From Fidelibacterota bacterium (lineage in GTDB: Bacteria; Pseudomonadota; Alphaproteobacteria; Rhodospirillales; Rhodospirillaceae): a DNA stretch of 42,340 bases. Below, piece by piece: positions 35,884-42,340 of this stretch. Position 1 is the stretch's first letter, and every line of letters begins with the position of its first letter. The stretch is from positions 1 through 42,340 of the forward strand of contig CANJLF010000022.1 of assembly GCA_947475295.1 (NCBI GenBank), written 5' to 3'. The position numbers and the translations under genes are program-made. Under the pieces are notes generated by a model. The model was not told the DNA's origin and made no database searches. It worked only from the letters and a program-made list of their open reading frames with translations.

Positions 35884-36136
35884 GTCTTTCCCTTCCCAAA
35901 TACGTGAACGCCGAGCGATCACTTTAAGCGACTATCTTCCTCATCGTAACTGAAAATGCGGCGCAACTCCTTGGAGGCAAATCTGTTACAGTCTATGGAG
36001 CGCATTCACGCTCGCGGTTCCTTACAGCGACAATGGTCTTATATATAGACGGGAGAAATTGGCGCCCACTCGGGCCGCTAGGCGGCCCTCCGTGGCACTC
36101 ACTTTTTCTAAGCTCGCTATGCTCGCTAAGAAAAAA
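35884..36136. other. Gene-free gap with GC hairpin
   Basis: About 250 bases between the propeller gene and the tRNA fragment. GGGCCGC-TAG-GCGGCCC (36072-36088) is a perfect 7-bp hairpin. A T-rich dyad with repeats of GCTCGCTA lies at 36106-36136. Read on the minus strand these follow the tRNA 3' end and may be its terminators. No open frame is convincing. Confidence 0.5.
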
Positions 36137-36183
36137 TGGTGCCGACGCGCGGAATTGAACCGCGGACCTACTGATTACGAATC
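36137..36183 (-). other. 3' half of tRNA-Thr(CGT): attachment-site scar of the island
   Basis: On the minus strand this is the 3' half of a tRNA: loop TTCGTAA with anticodon CGT (36175-36181), the 3' side of the anticodon stem (TCAGT), variable loop, a perfect T arm (CGCGG-TTCAATT-CCGCG at 36148-36164), acceptor strand CGTCGGC, discriminator A and encoded CCA (36137-36139). The 5' side fails from the anticodon stem outwards: only two or three of five pairs remain, and no GCCGACG acceptor partner or D arm is found in the next 100 bases. It is therefore not a functional gene but the displaced 3' end left by site-specific integration. The intact tRNA should lie beyond the window's right end. Confidence 0.85.
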
Positions 36184-36358
36184 GCCCTAAAGCCCTTTTC
36201 GACCACCTACTCCCTACTACGCCGGACCTACTCAAACCAGTGTTTTTATTGACGGATTCGGCAATTTGGCCGAACATCCTTTGCGCTGGCTTGCGCCGCG
36301 ATTCGCTTCCAGATGCTTCCAAATTGCTTCCGAGCTTTTGGCGGAGAGAGTGTTCAGA

Positions 36359-37555
36359 ATGAGTAGGCTGACAAAACGCTTTGTGGACGCACTCAAGCCC
36401 GCATCGTCAGACTATTTCGCCTGGGACGACGAACTCAAGGGCTTCGGTATTCGTGTTTCGCCTAAGGGCAAGAAGACCTTCCTGATTCAGTATCGGGCCG
36501 CTGGCCGCTCGCGGCGCATGAAGCTTGGTCCCTATGGGGCAGTTACAGCCGACGAAGCCCGCAACCGCGCCAAAACACTCCTTGGAGAGGTAGCCTCAGG
36601 CGAGAATCCGGCGGAAGAGGTCAGCCAACACCGCAAGTCACTCACGGTCTCCGAGGTCTGCGGACGGTTTAAAACGGATCATATCGACGTGCGGCTTAAA
36701 TCCAGTACGGGACGGGATTACAAGGCGATGATCGATAAAGTCATCGTGCCGAAGCTTGGCACCCGCAAGATCATCGACGTGTCACGGGTTGATATATCGG
36801 ACCTGCATCAAGCGATGAAGGACACCCCCTATCAGGCCAATCGCGTTTTCAGCGTCTTGTCGAAATTATTCAACATGGCGGAAATCTGGGGCATGAGGCC
36901 CGACGGTTCCAACCCATGCAGACACGTTAAGAAGTACGTGGAAAAGCGCCGCGAGCGGTTTCTGACACGTGATGAATTGATCAAGCTCGGCGGAGTGTTG
37001 GCGACGGCAGAACGAGACAAGACCGAGACCGAGCACGTAGTCGCGGCGTTTAGGCTTCTCATCTTTACGGGTTGCCGCATGTCGGAAATTCGCGACCTAA
37101 AGTGGGACTACGTAACCAACACGCACCTAGAACTTCCCGACAGCAAGACCGGGGCGCGTATGATCCCTCTCCCGCCCGAGGCCCGCCGTATTCTCAAGAC
37201 CCTCACACGTGCGGGTAAAAATCCCTACGTGATTGTAGGGGAGATTGCCGGACAACAAATGCAAGACCTTGAGAAGCCGTGGCGGCGGATTCGTAAAGCT
37301 GCCGGATTGGAAGACGTTCGCATCCACGATCTGCGCCACACCTACGCCTCCAATGCGATCATGGCCGGGCTGCCTGTGCCGGTTTTGGGTAAGATTCTAG
37401 GACACACCCAGATTCAAACGACCATGCGCTATGTTCACCTAGCCGATAAGCCCGTCCGCGATGCCGCAAACAAGGTGTCCAAGGGCCTTGGCGTCCTGCT
37501 CACGTATAGGCCCAAACGTGGTAAGCGGACAAAGCAAAGCCGGGTAGCGGCCTAA
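36359..37555 (+). CDS. int: Tyrosine site-specific recombinase (P4-type integrase)
   Basis: A 398-aa tyrosine recombinase with N-terminal DUF4102-type arm-binding domain (SRLTKRFVDALKP, FGIRVSPKGKKTFLIQYR), core-binding domain and catalytic domain. The catalytic set is Arg240 (GCRMSEIRDL), His323 and Arg326 (HDLRHTYAS), His349 (LGHTQIQTT) and Tyr358 (MRYVHL); all are present, so the enzyme is likely active. The start is set at 36359, behind GGAGAG; a longer frame from 36266 lacks family support. Position 176 bases from the tRNA fragment is classic for tRNA-targeting islands. The 3' end is overlapped by the first degenerate copy of the ACGTATACGT repeat. Confidence 0.95.
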   Translation: MSRLTKRFVDALKPASSDYFAWDDELKGFGIRVSPKGKKTFLIQYRAAGRSRRMKLGPYGAVTADEARNRAKTLLGEVASGENPAEEVSQHRKSLTVSEVCGRFKTDHIDVRLKSSTGRDYKAMIDKVIVPKLGTRKIIDVSRVDISDLHQAMKDTPYQANRVFSVLSKLFNMAEIWGMRPDGSNPCRHVKKYVEKRRERFLTRDELIKLGGVLATAERDKTETEHVVAAFRLLIFTGCRMSEIRDLKWDYVTNTHLELPDSKTGARMIPLPPEARRILKTLTRAGKNPYVIVGEIAGQQMQDLEKPWRRIRKAAGLEDVRIHDLRHTYASNAIMAGLPVPVLGKILGHTQIQTTMRYVHLADKPVRDAANKVSKGLGVLLTYRPKRGKRTKQSRVAA

Positions 37556-37690
37556 TGGTGTCCGCACGTATACGTGCGCGAGCCCTTTTGCACGTATACG
37601 TGTGACGTGCTCTTCTTACGTATACGTAGACAATCAAAAGCACGCGCCCGCCAAGCATGACACAAAATCCCCAATCTTCACGTATAGGTG
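37501..37690. repeat. Palindromic ACGTATACGT array with exact 26-bp period
   Basis: Three perfect palindromes lie at 37564-37577 (GCACGTATACGTGC), 37591-37602 (CACGTATACGTG) and 37617-37628 (TACGTATACGTA), with centres exactly 26 bp apart. Between the first two copies the spacers end in pyrimidine-rich CCCTTTT and GCTCTTC, so the units are also direct repeats. Degenerate copies, CACGTATAGG, lie at 37501-37510 in the integrase end and at 37679-37690 (CACGTATAGGTG) in the next gene. It could be iterons of an origin, arm-type recombinase sites, or an operator for the next genes. Confidence 0.9.
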
Positions 37691-38388
37691 CCGAATTGCG
37701 CGCACTTTGGGAAAAAGCCACTCCGTTGGACCAGGCACGGTATCGACTTGGCGACCCGACGCAAGTCAAAGAGTACTTCGCGCTTTTGAAACGAAAGCCA
37801 GGCGGGTTTAGTGTTATCGGGACAGTGGTCAATGTCCTAGCGGATATGGCGAAGGACGATATCCCTATTGAATCAGAAATGCGGACCACGCCTGAAGAAC
37901 GAGGCCGATTGAGTCGGCTTCACTCGGCCATTGACGATCATTGTATAGAACGTCTGCAACGCCGCGAGTTGGTCGCACTAGGCTATTCCATACCACGGCA
38001 CCCCGACGATCTGCCGCGCATTGTACCGGCGGAAATACTGACCCTGGGGCATATCAACTTCGGCAGCGACAGTGCGAAAGGTGACGGGCTGAAATTTGAA
38101 GCCGTGCGCGTCATACCTGCGGAGGCATTCACTGAAGCCTTGCCGGTTCGGAATCGGCCCGGTCGTCCATCGAATCGCGAACTTATAAAGAAGGCGTACG
38201 TGGCGTGTCGTGACGAAGGCGTTATCGACTTCGCCAAGCCTCAGAGGGCCGCTATCGAACTTGTTCGCGCACGTATACGTGCGATGTGTCCAACAGAGTA
38301 TGGTTTGGGAAAGGGCTTCGGCCCCGAAGTCGTGCGGGATTGTATCGTGGATGACTTCGCGGCGCGGGCCAGAAACCAGAAACTATAA
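37657..38388 (+). CDS. Uncharacterised island protein
   Basis: A 243-aa soluble, charged protein with no domain I recognise. Notable segments are PTQVKEYFALLKRKPGGFSV and a long helix in LHSAIDDHCIERLQRRELVALGYS, and the phrase PRHPDDLPRIVPAEILTLGHINFGSD. A basic proline-rich stretch, RNRPGRPSNRELIKKAY, resembles AT-hook or linker sequences and is followed by helices. No Shine-Dalgarno is seen. The gene starts within the ACGTATACGT array and carries a further 16-bp copy near its end (38268-38283), so it may encode, or be controlled by, the binder of that repeat. Lower-GC codon use than the chromosome suggests transfer. Confidence 0.6.
   Translation: MTQNPQSSRIGAELRALWEKATPLDQARYRLGDPTQVKEYFALLKRKPGGFSVIGTVVNVLADMAKDDIPIESEMRTTPEERGRLSRLHSAIDDHCIERLQRRELVALGYSIPRHPDDLPRIVPAEILTLGHINFGSDSAKGDGLKFEAVRVIPAEAFTEALPVRNRPGRPSNRELIKKAYVACRDEGVIDFAKPQRAAIELVRARIRAMCPTEYGLGKGFGPEVVRDCIVDDFAARARNQKL
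38268..38283. repeat. Distant 16-bp copy of the palindrome
   Basis: CGCACGTATACGTGCG is a perfect 16-bp palindrome, the longest of the set, 653 bp (centre to centre) from the third array copy and inside the coding sequence of the unknown gene. Confidence 0.9.
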
Positions 38389-38471
38389 ATTCCGAACCAA
38401 TTTACAGTCATTTTTCCGGTGACGCTTCGACAGCACCTTAGCCCCGTTGGCGTACTTGAACGGAGGTTGCG

Positions 38472-38702
38472 ATGCACGTTGCTAATTCAGCGCTGTCGGA
38501 GCGCGAATATCTTGATCAGCTTTTGAACGAACACGATGCCGCGCGGATGCTGGGATTCACGATCCGCGCGCTTCAAAACTGGCGGGTGCGTGGCGGTGGG
38601 CCGCAATTCGTGAAAATCTCCAAGCGGTCGGTTCGTTATCGTCGGCGCGATCTGCTGGCATGGGTAAACAAGCACATCAAAGTTAATACATCACAGGCGT
38701 AG
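38472..38702 (+). CDS. AlpA/excisionase-like helix-turn-helix protein
   Basis: A 76-aa protein with a MerR-like winged helix: NEHDAARMLGFTIRALQNWRVRGGGPQFVKISKRSVRYRRRDLLAWV. Such proteins act as excisionases or activators of integrative elements (AlpA/Xis family). A strong GGAGG lies six bases before the ATG. The following gene begins two bases after its stop, so the two are co-translated. Confidence 0.85.
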   Translation: MHVANSALSEREYLDQLLNEHDAARMLGFTIRALQNWRVRGGGPQFVKISKRSVRYRRRDLLAWVNKHIKVNTSQA

Positions 38703-38704
38703 CC

Positions 38705-39451
38705 ATGGCGAACTTCGGAAGGATTCCGAAGGGTACGGGCTACGGGAAGGTGCCCAAGTTCATATTCCGCCTTCCTGGCGTGCGACCCGGCCCTAAGGCG
38801 CTCTATTGTAGCCTTTGCACAAACGCTTCTCCTGAAGGCATCCTGTGGCGGTCTCTGACAAAGCTGGGGAAGGAGTTCGGCGTTTCGACACGCCAGATTC
38901 AGCGCTGGGTGAACCACCTGGAGCGCGCGGGCGCGCTGGTCCGCATGGGATGGATGGGAACGAGCAACCGCTTTCTGGTCATCCGTGACGAAAAGGGCGT
39001 TCCCTGGGCGAAACGGGAAGCGGCAAAAAACATCGTCGCGCGGCGCGTTACCCGGAGTTCTCGGACGCGGACAGCCGAAGATTCGTGTTTACCAGCTACA
39101 ACGACACCTATGTCGCCCGAACCGGACATAGAAGTCGTGCCAGCCGCGACACCCATGTCGCATAAACATAACCTTACGAACCAAAACAAATTAACAAACC
39201 CACTTGCTCGGCAAGGGGAGAGTAACGCGAGGGCCTTTACGCCCAATTCAAAGACGTGGGGGTTGAAACACCCAAAGCAAGAAAAGCGTGCGGAAGAGGT
39301 TCAATCGGCGCTCAACGCGATGGGGGCCTCGCATGGCTGGGAAATTCTTGCGGCAATGTCCACTGAGCAGATCGCTACGGAATTAGCGCGGTCTCACGGC
39401 CTGCGCCTAACGGAGGAGGAAAAACGCCTGTTTTTGACGTTGGGAACATAG
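38705..39451 (+). CDS. Replication-initiator-like winged-helix protein
   Basis: A 248-aa protein. Its N-terminal domain has a winged helix-turn-helix as in phage and plasmid initiation proteins: PGPKALYCSLCTNASPEGILWRS, then LGKEFGVSTRQIQRWVNHLERAGALVRM. The middle (~115-190) is a polar, low-complexity linker, and the C-terminus forms a small helical domain with EEVQSALNAMGASHGW. It probably acts in replication or regulation of the island. I place it in the helix-turn-helix/DnaD-like group by pattern, not by search. Confidence 0.68.
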   Translation: MANFGRIPKGTGYGKVPKFIFRLPGVRPGPKALYCSLCTNASPEGILWRSLTKLGKEFGVSTRQIQRWVNHLERAGALVRMGWMGTSNRFLVIRDEKGVPWAKREAAKNIVARRVTRSSRTRTAEDSCLPATTTPMSPEPDIEVVPAATPMSHKHNLTNQNKLTNPLARQGESNARAFTPNSKTWGLKHPKQEKRAEEVQSALNAMGASHGWEILAAMSTEQIATELARSHGLRLTEEEKRLFLTLGT

Positions 39452-39468
39452 CCGCATTGGCTGGATTC

Positions 39469-39680
39469 CCGAATTTTCGGATTCCCGGAATTTCGGCCGG
39501 AAAATTCGGAATTTTCAGACCGAGGTTTTCGGCCAAGCCCAGCCTAAATCTGCTGACTTACTCCATATATACCTATTTTCGGCTGGCTCCTGCCGACTTC
39601 TGCCAATTCCGGCTGGGGTTGAGTATGTTTCCTAGTACAATCTGTTTTAGGTGAGGTAGGCGCATGTGGGGATCACAATA
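39469..39680. promoter_or_regulatory. Inverted-repeat-rich region upstream of hsdM
   Basis: This gap has CCGAATTTTC (39469-39478) repeated in inverted orientation as GAAAATTCGG (39500-39509), plus overlapping CCGGAA/TTTCGGCC words and three further TTTTCGGC or TTCCGGCT copies downstream. Many C/G steps with A/T cores suggest binding sites for an autoregulator of the restriction system. There is a CATATATACC stretch near 39564, but no convincing -35/-10 pair. Confidence 0.45.
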
Positions 39681-41322
<1,642 letters not shown>

Positions 41323-41330
<8 letters not shown>

Positions 41331-42340
41331 GTGGACCTCTGCCCGATTTGGGGATGTGGTCACCTTCGTCAATGGCGATCGAAGTGCCAATTATCCCAAG
41401 ATGAACGACTACGTCTTGGCCGGCGCTCCCTTTATCAACGCGGCGGACATCACTGGCGGACGGCTGGACCTTTCCAACGCGGCACAGATCTCGGACGAGG
41501 CATTCGATAGGCTACGGTCAGGAAAGGTCAGGAAAGGCGATATTCTTTTCTGTCTGCGTGGATCGATAGGAAAGATGGCAATCGTCCAAGCCATTGCGCG
41601 TGGCGCCATCGCCTCTTCGTTGGTTATTATTCGACCCACAGAAGCCATAGATGGAGCGTTTCTATATTACTTTCTGGTCAGCCCTTCGACTCAGGCTACT
41701 GCGCTGAGCTTGGACAACGGCTCAGTTCAACCAAACCTTTCGGTGAAATCTCTCGCGAACCTCACAATATCACTGCCCAATCTTATCGAGCAGAGGGCTG
41801 TGGCGTCTATCCTGCGAGCGCATGACGACAAGATCGAATTGAACCGCAGCATGAACGAAACGCTCGAAGCCATGGCGCGTGCACTCTTCAGGGATTGGTT
41901 CGTCGAATTCGGCCCCACGCGAGCGAAGATGGAAGGTCGCGCACCCTACCTAGCCCCGGAAATTTGGTCTCTATTTCCTGAACGGCTGGATTACTACGGG
42001 AAGCCAGAGGGATGGTCTAAAACTACTTTGGCTAACCTGACAGCAAAAATCGGAAGCGGCGCGACGCCAAGGGGCGGTCAAGAGGTTTACGGGCACGGGA
42101 CCATAAACCTAATCCGCAGCCAAAACATTTATGATTACCGTTTTGTGCACGATGGTCTTGTGACAATCAGCGACGAGGATGCTTATCGATTACGGGGCGT
42201 AACCGTAGAGAAGGGTGACGTACTCATAAATATAACAGGCGACTCCATCCTGCGTACCTGTGCAGTTGACTCACGCGTACTTCCCGCTCGCGTCAATCAG
42301 CACGTCGCAATCGTTCGAGCCATAAGCGGAATTCCCGCTC
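41323..42340 (+). CDS. hsdS: Type I restriction-modification specificity subunit, partial
   Basis: The frame from ATG at 41323 stays open for 339 codons to the window end. It shows the HsdS pattern: a first target-recognition domain with [30 protein letters not shown] and [22 protein letters not shown], a conserved central helix ([30 protein letters not shown]), then a second domain beginning [22 protein letters not shown] and [14 protein letters not shown]. It determines the DNA site recognised by the HsdM/HsdR complex. The C-terminal part of the second domain and its helix are missing because the window ends. Confidence 0.93.

Follow-up and report, generated by a model that had tools for sequence, protein, structure and literature searches.

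An array of short palindromes in a bacterial genomic island raises the question of what reads it; namely, whether the sites are operators of the island's own core genes or whether they serve recombination, replication or a factor from outside the island. The array lies on contig CANJLF010000022.1 (assembly GCA_947475295.1) between the integrase gene (int) and orf243, a gene for a 243-residue protein (ORF243) that is followed by genes for an AlpA-like protein (alpA) and a replication-type protein (rep-like). We refer to the whole 42,340-nt stretch analysed as the window; the island is cut at the contig end (position 42340), so its assembly is incomplete. Loci that we fetched are labelled L, genomes are labelled G, and C5 is another contig of the source genome. 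The array sites are symmetric and stand at the head of a conserved, co-directional gene module, and many related islands carry similar sites. Judged from these sequences, we lean, at a little short of an even chance, towards the array being an operator present in several copies within the promoter region of a putative orf243–alpA–rep-like core operon, most likely bound by ORF243.

The array consists of five sites, and a further palindrome lies within orf243 (window positions; no strand is assigned to the sites):
37502–37511, degenerate outer array site ACGTATAGGC, with the degenerate copy ACGTATAGG, inside the 3′ end of the integrase gene
37563–37578, array site 1, 16-bp perfect palindrome CGCACGTATACGTGCG
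37591–37602, array site 2, 12-bp perfect palindrome CACGTATACGTG
37617–37628, array site 3, 12-bp perfect palindrome TACGTATACGTA
37680–37689, outer array site, degenerate (ACGTATAGGT), within the 5′ part of orf243
38268–38283, intragenic 16-bp perfect palindrome in orf243

The array noticed in a preliminary description of this DNA is real. The perfect palindromes have their centres at 37570.5 (16 bp), 37596.5 (12 bp), 37622.5 (12 bp) and, as the 16-bp copy beginning at 38268, at 38275.5; their symmetry is perfect, as described, and only the length given for the first three (12–14 bp) was slightly off. The degenerate flanking copies that it mentioned are present at 37502 and 37680. The window holds 25 perfect even palindromes of at least 12 bp in total. 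The word ACGTATACGT occurs exactly at 37566, 37592, 37618 and 38271, and five matches (including ACGTATAGGT at 37680) are found when up to one mismatch is allowed, compared with a mean of 0.36 in shuffled sequences, none of which reached five (0 of 100). The 2.7-Mb source genome has six exact copies, four of them here, and two copies of the word read backwards; as far as the island is assembled, its exact copies are confined to the int–orf243 interval and the inside of orf243. Relative to the ATG at 37657, the five centres lie at −150.5, −86.5, −60.5, −34.5 and +27.5, a nearly symmetric layout with gaps of 64, 26, 26 and 62 bp between successive centres. Repeated symmetric sites near the start of the gene for the candidate regulator, the arrangement of an autoregulatory operator, are present in the window.

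Exact pairs of ACGTATACGT at 26 bp are rare: GTDB genome contigs yielded one stretch, in which we recognized no island genes by eye, and IMG/VR yielded two CGTATA-rich stretches (both collections, as searched, may omit the window's own record). Among 73 genomes of the family, a stricter pattern with slightly looser spacing was found only in the source genome itself. None of the literature matches listed for ACGTATACGT concerned such islands, judging by titles and the beginnings of abstracts, and four longer or related words returned none.

The array is part of a wider pattern among islands that encode relatives of ORF243. Such relatives were found in 8 of 297, 11 of 385, 15 of 292, 7 of 25 and 11 of 317 genomes, in samples that overlap, with some matches weak or partial and the source genome counted in three. 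The gene alpA follows orf243 in 29 of 31 loci (the exceptions are L041, in which the two are fused, and L044, at a contig end) and a putative rep follows in 24; int is the immediate upstream neighbour, on the same strand, in 15 loci and has another position in 4, and the fetched stretch of the other 12 shows no int. Five proteins were scanned, and the label Rep derives from a single sub-threshold match (PF02486, 15.6 bits; cut-off, 29.6). For comparison of the sites, we took the 38 loci with an ORF243 match, dropped 12 that were weak, partial or redundant, and analysed 330 bp around the orf243 start in the remaining 26, with expectations drawn from the rest of the same loci. Word enrichment replaced palindrome counting in the relatives because only the window stood out by the latter; the sites of the relatives are repeated but are mostly imperfect palindromes. 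The top enriched 5-mer was ACGTA (85 seen compared with 7.35 expected), which occurs in 16 of the 26 loci and in at least two copies in 13, and in 12 loci the tested stretch was richer in ACGTA than any other interval tested in the same locus. Two loci without ACGTA have repeats of another kind: five CCTAACG-type copies in L052, a count that none of 14 control intervals reached, and three CTAGC-type copies in L049, reached by a fraction of 0.043 of control intervals. The proposal that the array is a specific protein–DNA structure is well supported by the recurrence of comparable sites in this position in many related islands. The 26-bp regularity, on which the preliminary description had built an argument about helical faces, is not conserved; the 25 loci compared give 68 site pairs with separations of 15–80 bp, of which 5 have the 26-bp spacing (4 in the window and 1 in L038), and the exact geometry seems to be peculiar to this one copy.

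We propose that a dimeric protein encoded by the island, most likely ORF243 acting through its C-terminal helical domain, would bind the symmetric sites in the int–orf243 interval and those within orf243 itself. Bound ORF243 would repress its own operon, and as long as the island is integrated this repression would prevent both excision (AlpA) and replication (Rep). The identity of the reader is approached by elimination: ORF243 or an outside factor is left because int and AlpA are conserved and the closeness of Rep proteins, beyond the two closest cases, is not predictive. Within the order of G624 (up to 11 loci), mean identity is 0.82 for the integrase (8 loci), 0.78 for AlpA (11 loci) and 0.33 for ORF243. 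Differing arrays are hardly explained by the integrase and AlpA, because both are conserved where arrays differ, and either is unlikely as the reader. The 11 relatives that were aligned with ORF243 are 18–29% identical to it. Five loci have more than 400 bp between int and orf243, and in four of them (L029, L033, L037 and L055) no more than about 210 bp separates the array from orf243. Outside L114, L115 and L116, what the arrays have in common is a position at the start of the series of genes running towards alpA and rep.

ORF243 matched nothing in Pfam, PHROGs or NCBIfam up to an E-value of 1, and its sequence profiles gave only weak matches to unrelated proteins in the PDB. A structure model of the whole protein is poor (mean predicted local distance difference test score (pLDDT) of 48); for the C-terminal 78 residues (a domain of about 75 residues), three helices are predicted with fair confidence (72.7), and this helical domain may bind DNA.

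Several results weigh against an operator read by ORF243. The C-terminal model had no match among solved structures in Foldseek (best E-value, 1.1), and no consensus promoter was found at the array. ACGTA is wholly lacking around the orf243 start in 10 of the 26 loci; among these, no repeat is significant in L056, which has a single 14-bp palindrome, and nothing clear is seen in others such as L030, L032 and L051. The window alone is significant for perfect palindromes among the 26 loci (P = 0.005; overall, 20 were seen compared with 10.1 expected), and repeated 10-mers exceeded all control intervals in 4 of 28 loci. Array similarity does not correlate with the similarity of any protein (Spearman's ρ from −0.07 to 0.10), and the Mantel r between ORF243 and the array (0.14 and 0.29) is nearly matched by that of a control region within the gene (0.09 and 0.27). 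Within the ACGTA class compared with across classes, mean identity is 0.83 and 0.79 for AlpA and 0.36 and 0.34 for ORF243, the same slight gradient for both, and words of 15–17 bp are common to loci whose ORF243 proteins are only 20–23% identical. The array also occurs apart from orf243. In L114, the fifth of the widely spaced cases, it adjoins int, and 4.3 kb with cargo intervene before orf243. In L115/L085, where the integrase is 98% identical to that of L034, the L034 array is kept, with a single difference over the 122 bp that follow int, and orf243 is swapped for an unrelated 236-residue open reading frame (ORF). In L116, int is accompanied by sites of both types described below, and orf243, alpA and rep were not found in 14.5 kb; L118 has five ACGTA copies and a different ORF (273 residues) in place of orf243. 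More broadly, integrase relatives gave 73 matches in 58 of 283 genomes, and of the 30 loci fetched and read, 23 lack orf243 within about 1.5 kb after int; at least five ACGTA copies within 350 bp after int occur in 4 of these 23 and in 2 of the 7 with orf243, which does not separate the groups.

The L115 and L118 replacement ORFs, both between int and alpA, have no Pfam match at the cut-off. Two unlike sets of sites, of the ACGTA type and the CCGGGTATACCCGG type, stand side by side after int in L116 (3838–3955) and L114 (9039–9170), and CCGGGTATACCCGG-type sites also occur upstream of orf243 in L117 (89% alike over 45 bp).

The alternatives have to be weighed against the layout of the island as a whole, which comprises the following features:
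36132–36183, minus strand, island end (attachment site, att), the 3′ half of tRNA-Thr(CGT) plus five A, with exact ends read by eye
L083 376–427 on contig C5, the other att copy, with the intact tRNA at 381–455
36305–36331, no strand, likely integrase arm-type direct repeats GCTTCC at 36305, 36315 and 36326, a role suggested by position
36359–37555, plus strand, tyrosine integrase with Arm-DNA-bind_3 and Phage_integrase domains
37657–38388, plus strand, orf243, candidate regulator
38472–38702, plus strand, AlpA-like HTH_17 protein
38705–39451, plus strand, HTH_36 protein similar to replication initiators of phages (a different putative Rep occupies this place in relatives)
39666–41330, plus strand, HsdM of a type I restriction–modification system (cargo)
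41314–42339, plus strand, HsdS, type I specificity subunit (cargo), truncated by the contig end

The first approximately 375 bases of contig C5 would then be the other end of the island. Near both ends, GCTTCC repeats lie 10–11 bp apart (at 36305, 36315 and 36326, and at L083 296 and 307), and pairs of GCTTCC or GGTAAGC at this spacing were found at 13 of the 14 ends of 7 islands (that of the window and L031, L033, L034, L036, L037 and L038). The tRNA end of L034 has a single GCTTCC, and both ends of an eighth island, L042, carry a tandem repeat of another kind. From their position, these repeats are likely to be the arm sites of the integrase. The preliminary description had offered integrase arm sites as one role for the palindromes; we consider it improbable that the array serves the recombination machinery, whether as integrase arm sites or as sites for AlpA acting as an excisionase, because the GCTTCC repeats occupy the arm-type places at both ends. 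The array does adjoin int in the window and several relatives and stays with int in L114 and L116. However, it lies more than 1.3 kb from att in the window, its palindrome, as far as the island is assembled, does not flank the core on both sides of the integrated element, and integrase identity is equal within and across array classes (0.816 between ACGTA-bearing loci and 0.821 across classes).

A factor from outside the island and a replication origin are the main rivals of the operator reading. An outside factor, either a regulator of a helper phage or a host transcription factor, would read the array to control the core operon; we regard this as unlikely but as an explanation of some weight. 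The island proteins do not track array similarity, the 15–17-bp words recur between distant loci, and a helper phage activates the early regulon in phage-inducible chromosomal minimalist island (PICMI) satellites, according to part of PMC10803314. By contrast, a conserved host factor predicts the same motif in related hosts, and the full modules L119–L123 (order of G624) have no cluster of at least three ACGTA copies outside int; no helper is known for these islands. Origin iterons, another suggestion of the preliminary description, would be bound after excision by the island replication protein or by ORF243 acting as an initiator. An origin need not adjoin one particular gene, which fits L114, L115 and L116; the fourth island gene resembles replication initiators, ACGTA arrays accompany the two nearest relatives of the L034 Rep (those of L115 and L125), and phage-inducible chromosomal islands (PICIs) have iteron origins, according to passages of PMC6092414. 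Yet the array is not AT-rich (GC content of 0.52–0.58 in 200-bp intervals across it), as a melting region would be, and ACGTA does not simply follow Rep similarity. The replication-type protein of the window differs from that of its Rep-bearing relatives and the ACGTA array is nevertheless present; beyond the closest two, L126 and L118 combine a distant Rep with ACGTA, whereas L119, L121 and L124 have a closer Rep and none. The PICI origin described in the same source also lies 3′ to rep. We retain an origin as a rival, although a rather unlikely one. A partition (centromere-like) site or other stabilizing sequence is highly improbable: palindromes at regular intervals ahead of a gene whose product may bind DNA are reminiscent of partition operators in outline, but we noticed no ParA-like gene in the visible part of the island, which is incomplete in the assembly and was not searched specifically for one.

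A structured RNA of the int-alpA type was also considered, and no Rfam covariance model matched between int and alpA; scanning window positions 35900–40000 at E-values up to 10 gave a sole match, to HgcC (14.3 bits, gathering score 50), inside int. Just after the HTH_36 gene, a tandem 16-nt pair, GGATTCCCGAATTTTC and GGATTCCCGGAATTTC (88% alike), occupies window positions 39463–39494, on the same side of rep as PICI origins (passages of PMC6092414).

Across the family, islands occur in several orders of one class, some with restriction–modification and other defence-like genes. Of the 8 loci searched for direct repeats, 6 have repeats of 45–51 bp that connect a tRNA gene with the far end, L033 has shorter identical pieces and L032 has none. 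The cargo of sister islands resembles anti-phage systems, namely Dsr1/SIR2 in L036, bSEFIR in L038 and, more weakly, PD-T4-5 and PDC-M36A in L034, and that of L114 includes an aspartate exchanger and an aminotransferase-like gene. In L041 (2531–3274), an ORF243-like part and an AlpA-type helix–turn–helix are fused in one ORF, and genome G853 has two copies of the module (L057 and L060) whose 300-bp upstream stretches are identical. In viral contigs, plasmids and phages, no relative of ORF243 was found by searches able to detect close relatives only.

The island resembles known satellites in several respects. Like PICIs as presented in parts of PMC6092414, it is small and has an integrase, a gene in the regulator position by int, a replication-like gene and accessory cargo, and it shares an AlpA-like protein with Gram-negative PICIs. 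It differs in that ORF243 matches no library family, and in that orf243 points the same way as alpA and rep, whereas the regulators are divergent in Gram-positive PICIs, in which Stl/Rpr is the master repressor (PMC6092414, in part). The comparison is one of genes; a helper phage and packaging are PICI features. An integrase, an AlpA-type regulator, a replication gene and direct-repeat ends occur together in small islands in L034, L036, L037 and L038; the island of the window is incomplete, and its fourth gene is no more than replication-like. In PICMI satellites of Vibrionaceae, int is usually followed by a variable gene of unknown function and then by alpA and a replication gene, and the cargo includes restriction–modification, as in the window; the replication gene is prim, the hosts are others, and 'palindrom' is absent from the main text (PMC10803314). 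The replacement ORFs of L115 and L118 are much like this variable gene in their position. A jumbo phage moves islands that lie in transfer-messenger RNA (tmRNA) genes and carry intY and alpA; these islands share integration at an RNA gene, direct repeats, a tyrosine integrase, AlpA and defence cargo; they differ in that alpA is at the far end, and the available part of PMC12595487 describes no array.

Phage repressor control regions with multiple operators, such as that of lambda cI, have several symmetric sites at the regulator gene. The array has no sequence relation to them, and repression of the island core by ORF243 is a proposal. A broader idea, possible but doubtful, is that orf243 and its array form an exchangeable switch module, a functional counterpart of the Stl master repressor that is missing from Gram-negative satellites. 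If so, a rapidly diverging regulator with its own set of operators would decide when these defence-carrying tRNA islands excise, and would also decide which islands tolerate each other in one cell. How small Gram-negative AlpA islands are silenced was called unclear in 2018 (passages of PMC6092414); a recurrent, easily recognized array and an unnamed candidate regulator ahead of alpA and rep make the question of silencing testable across these islands.
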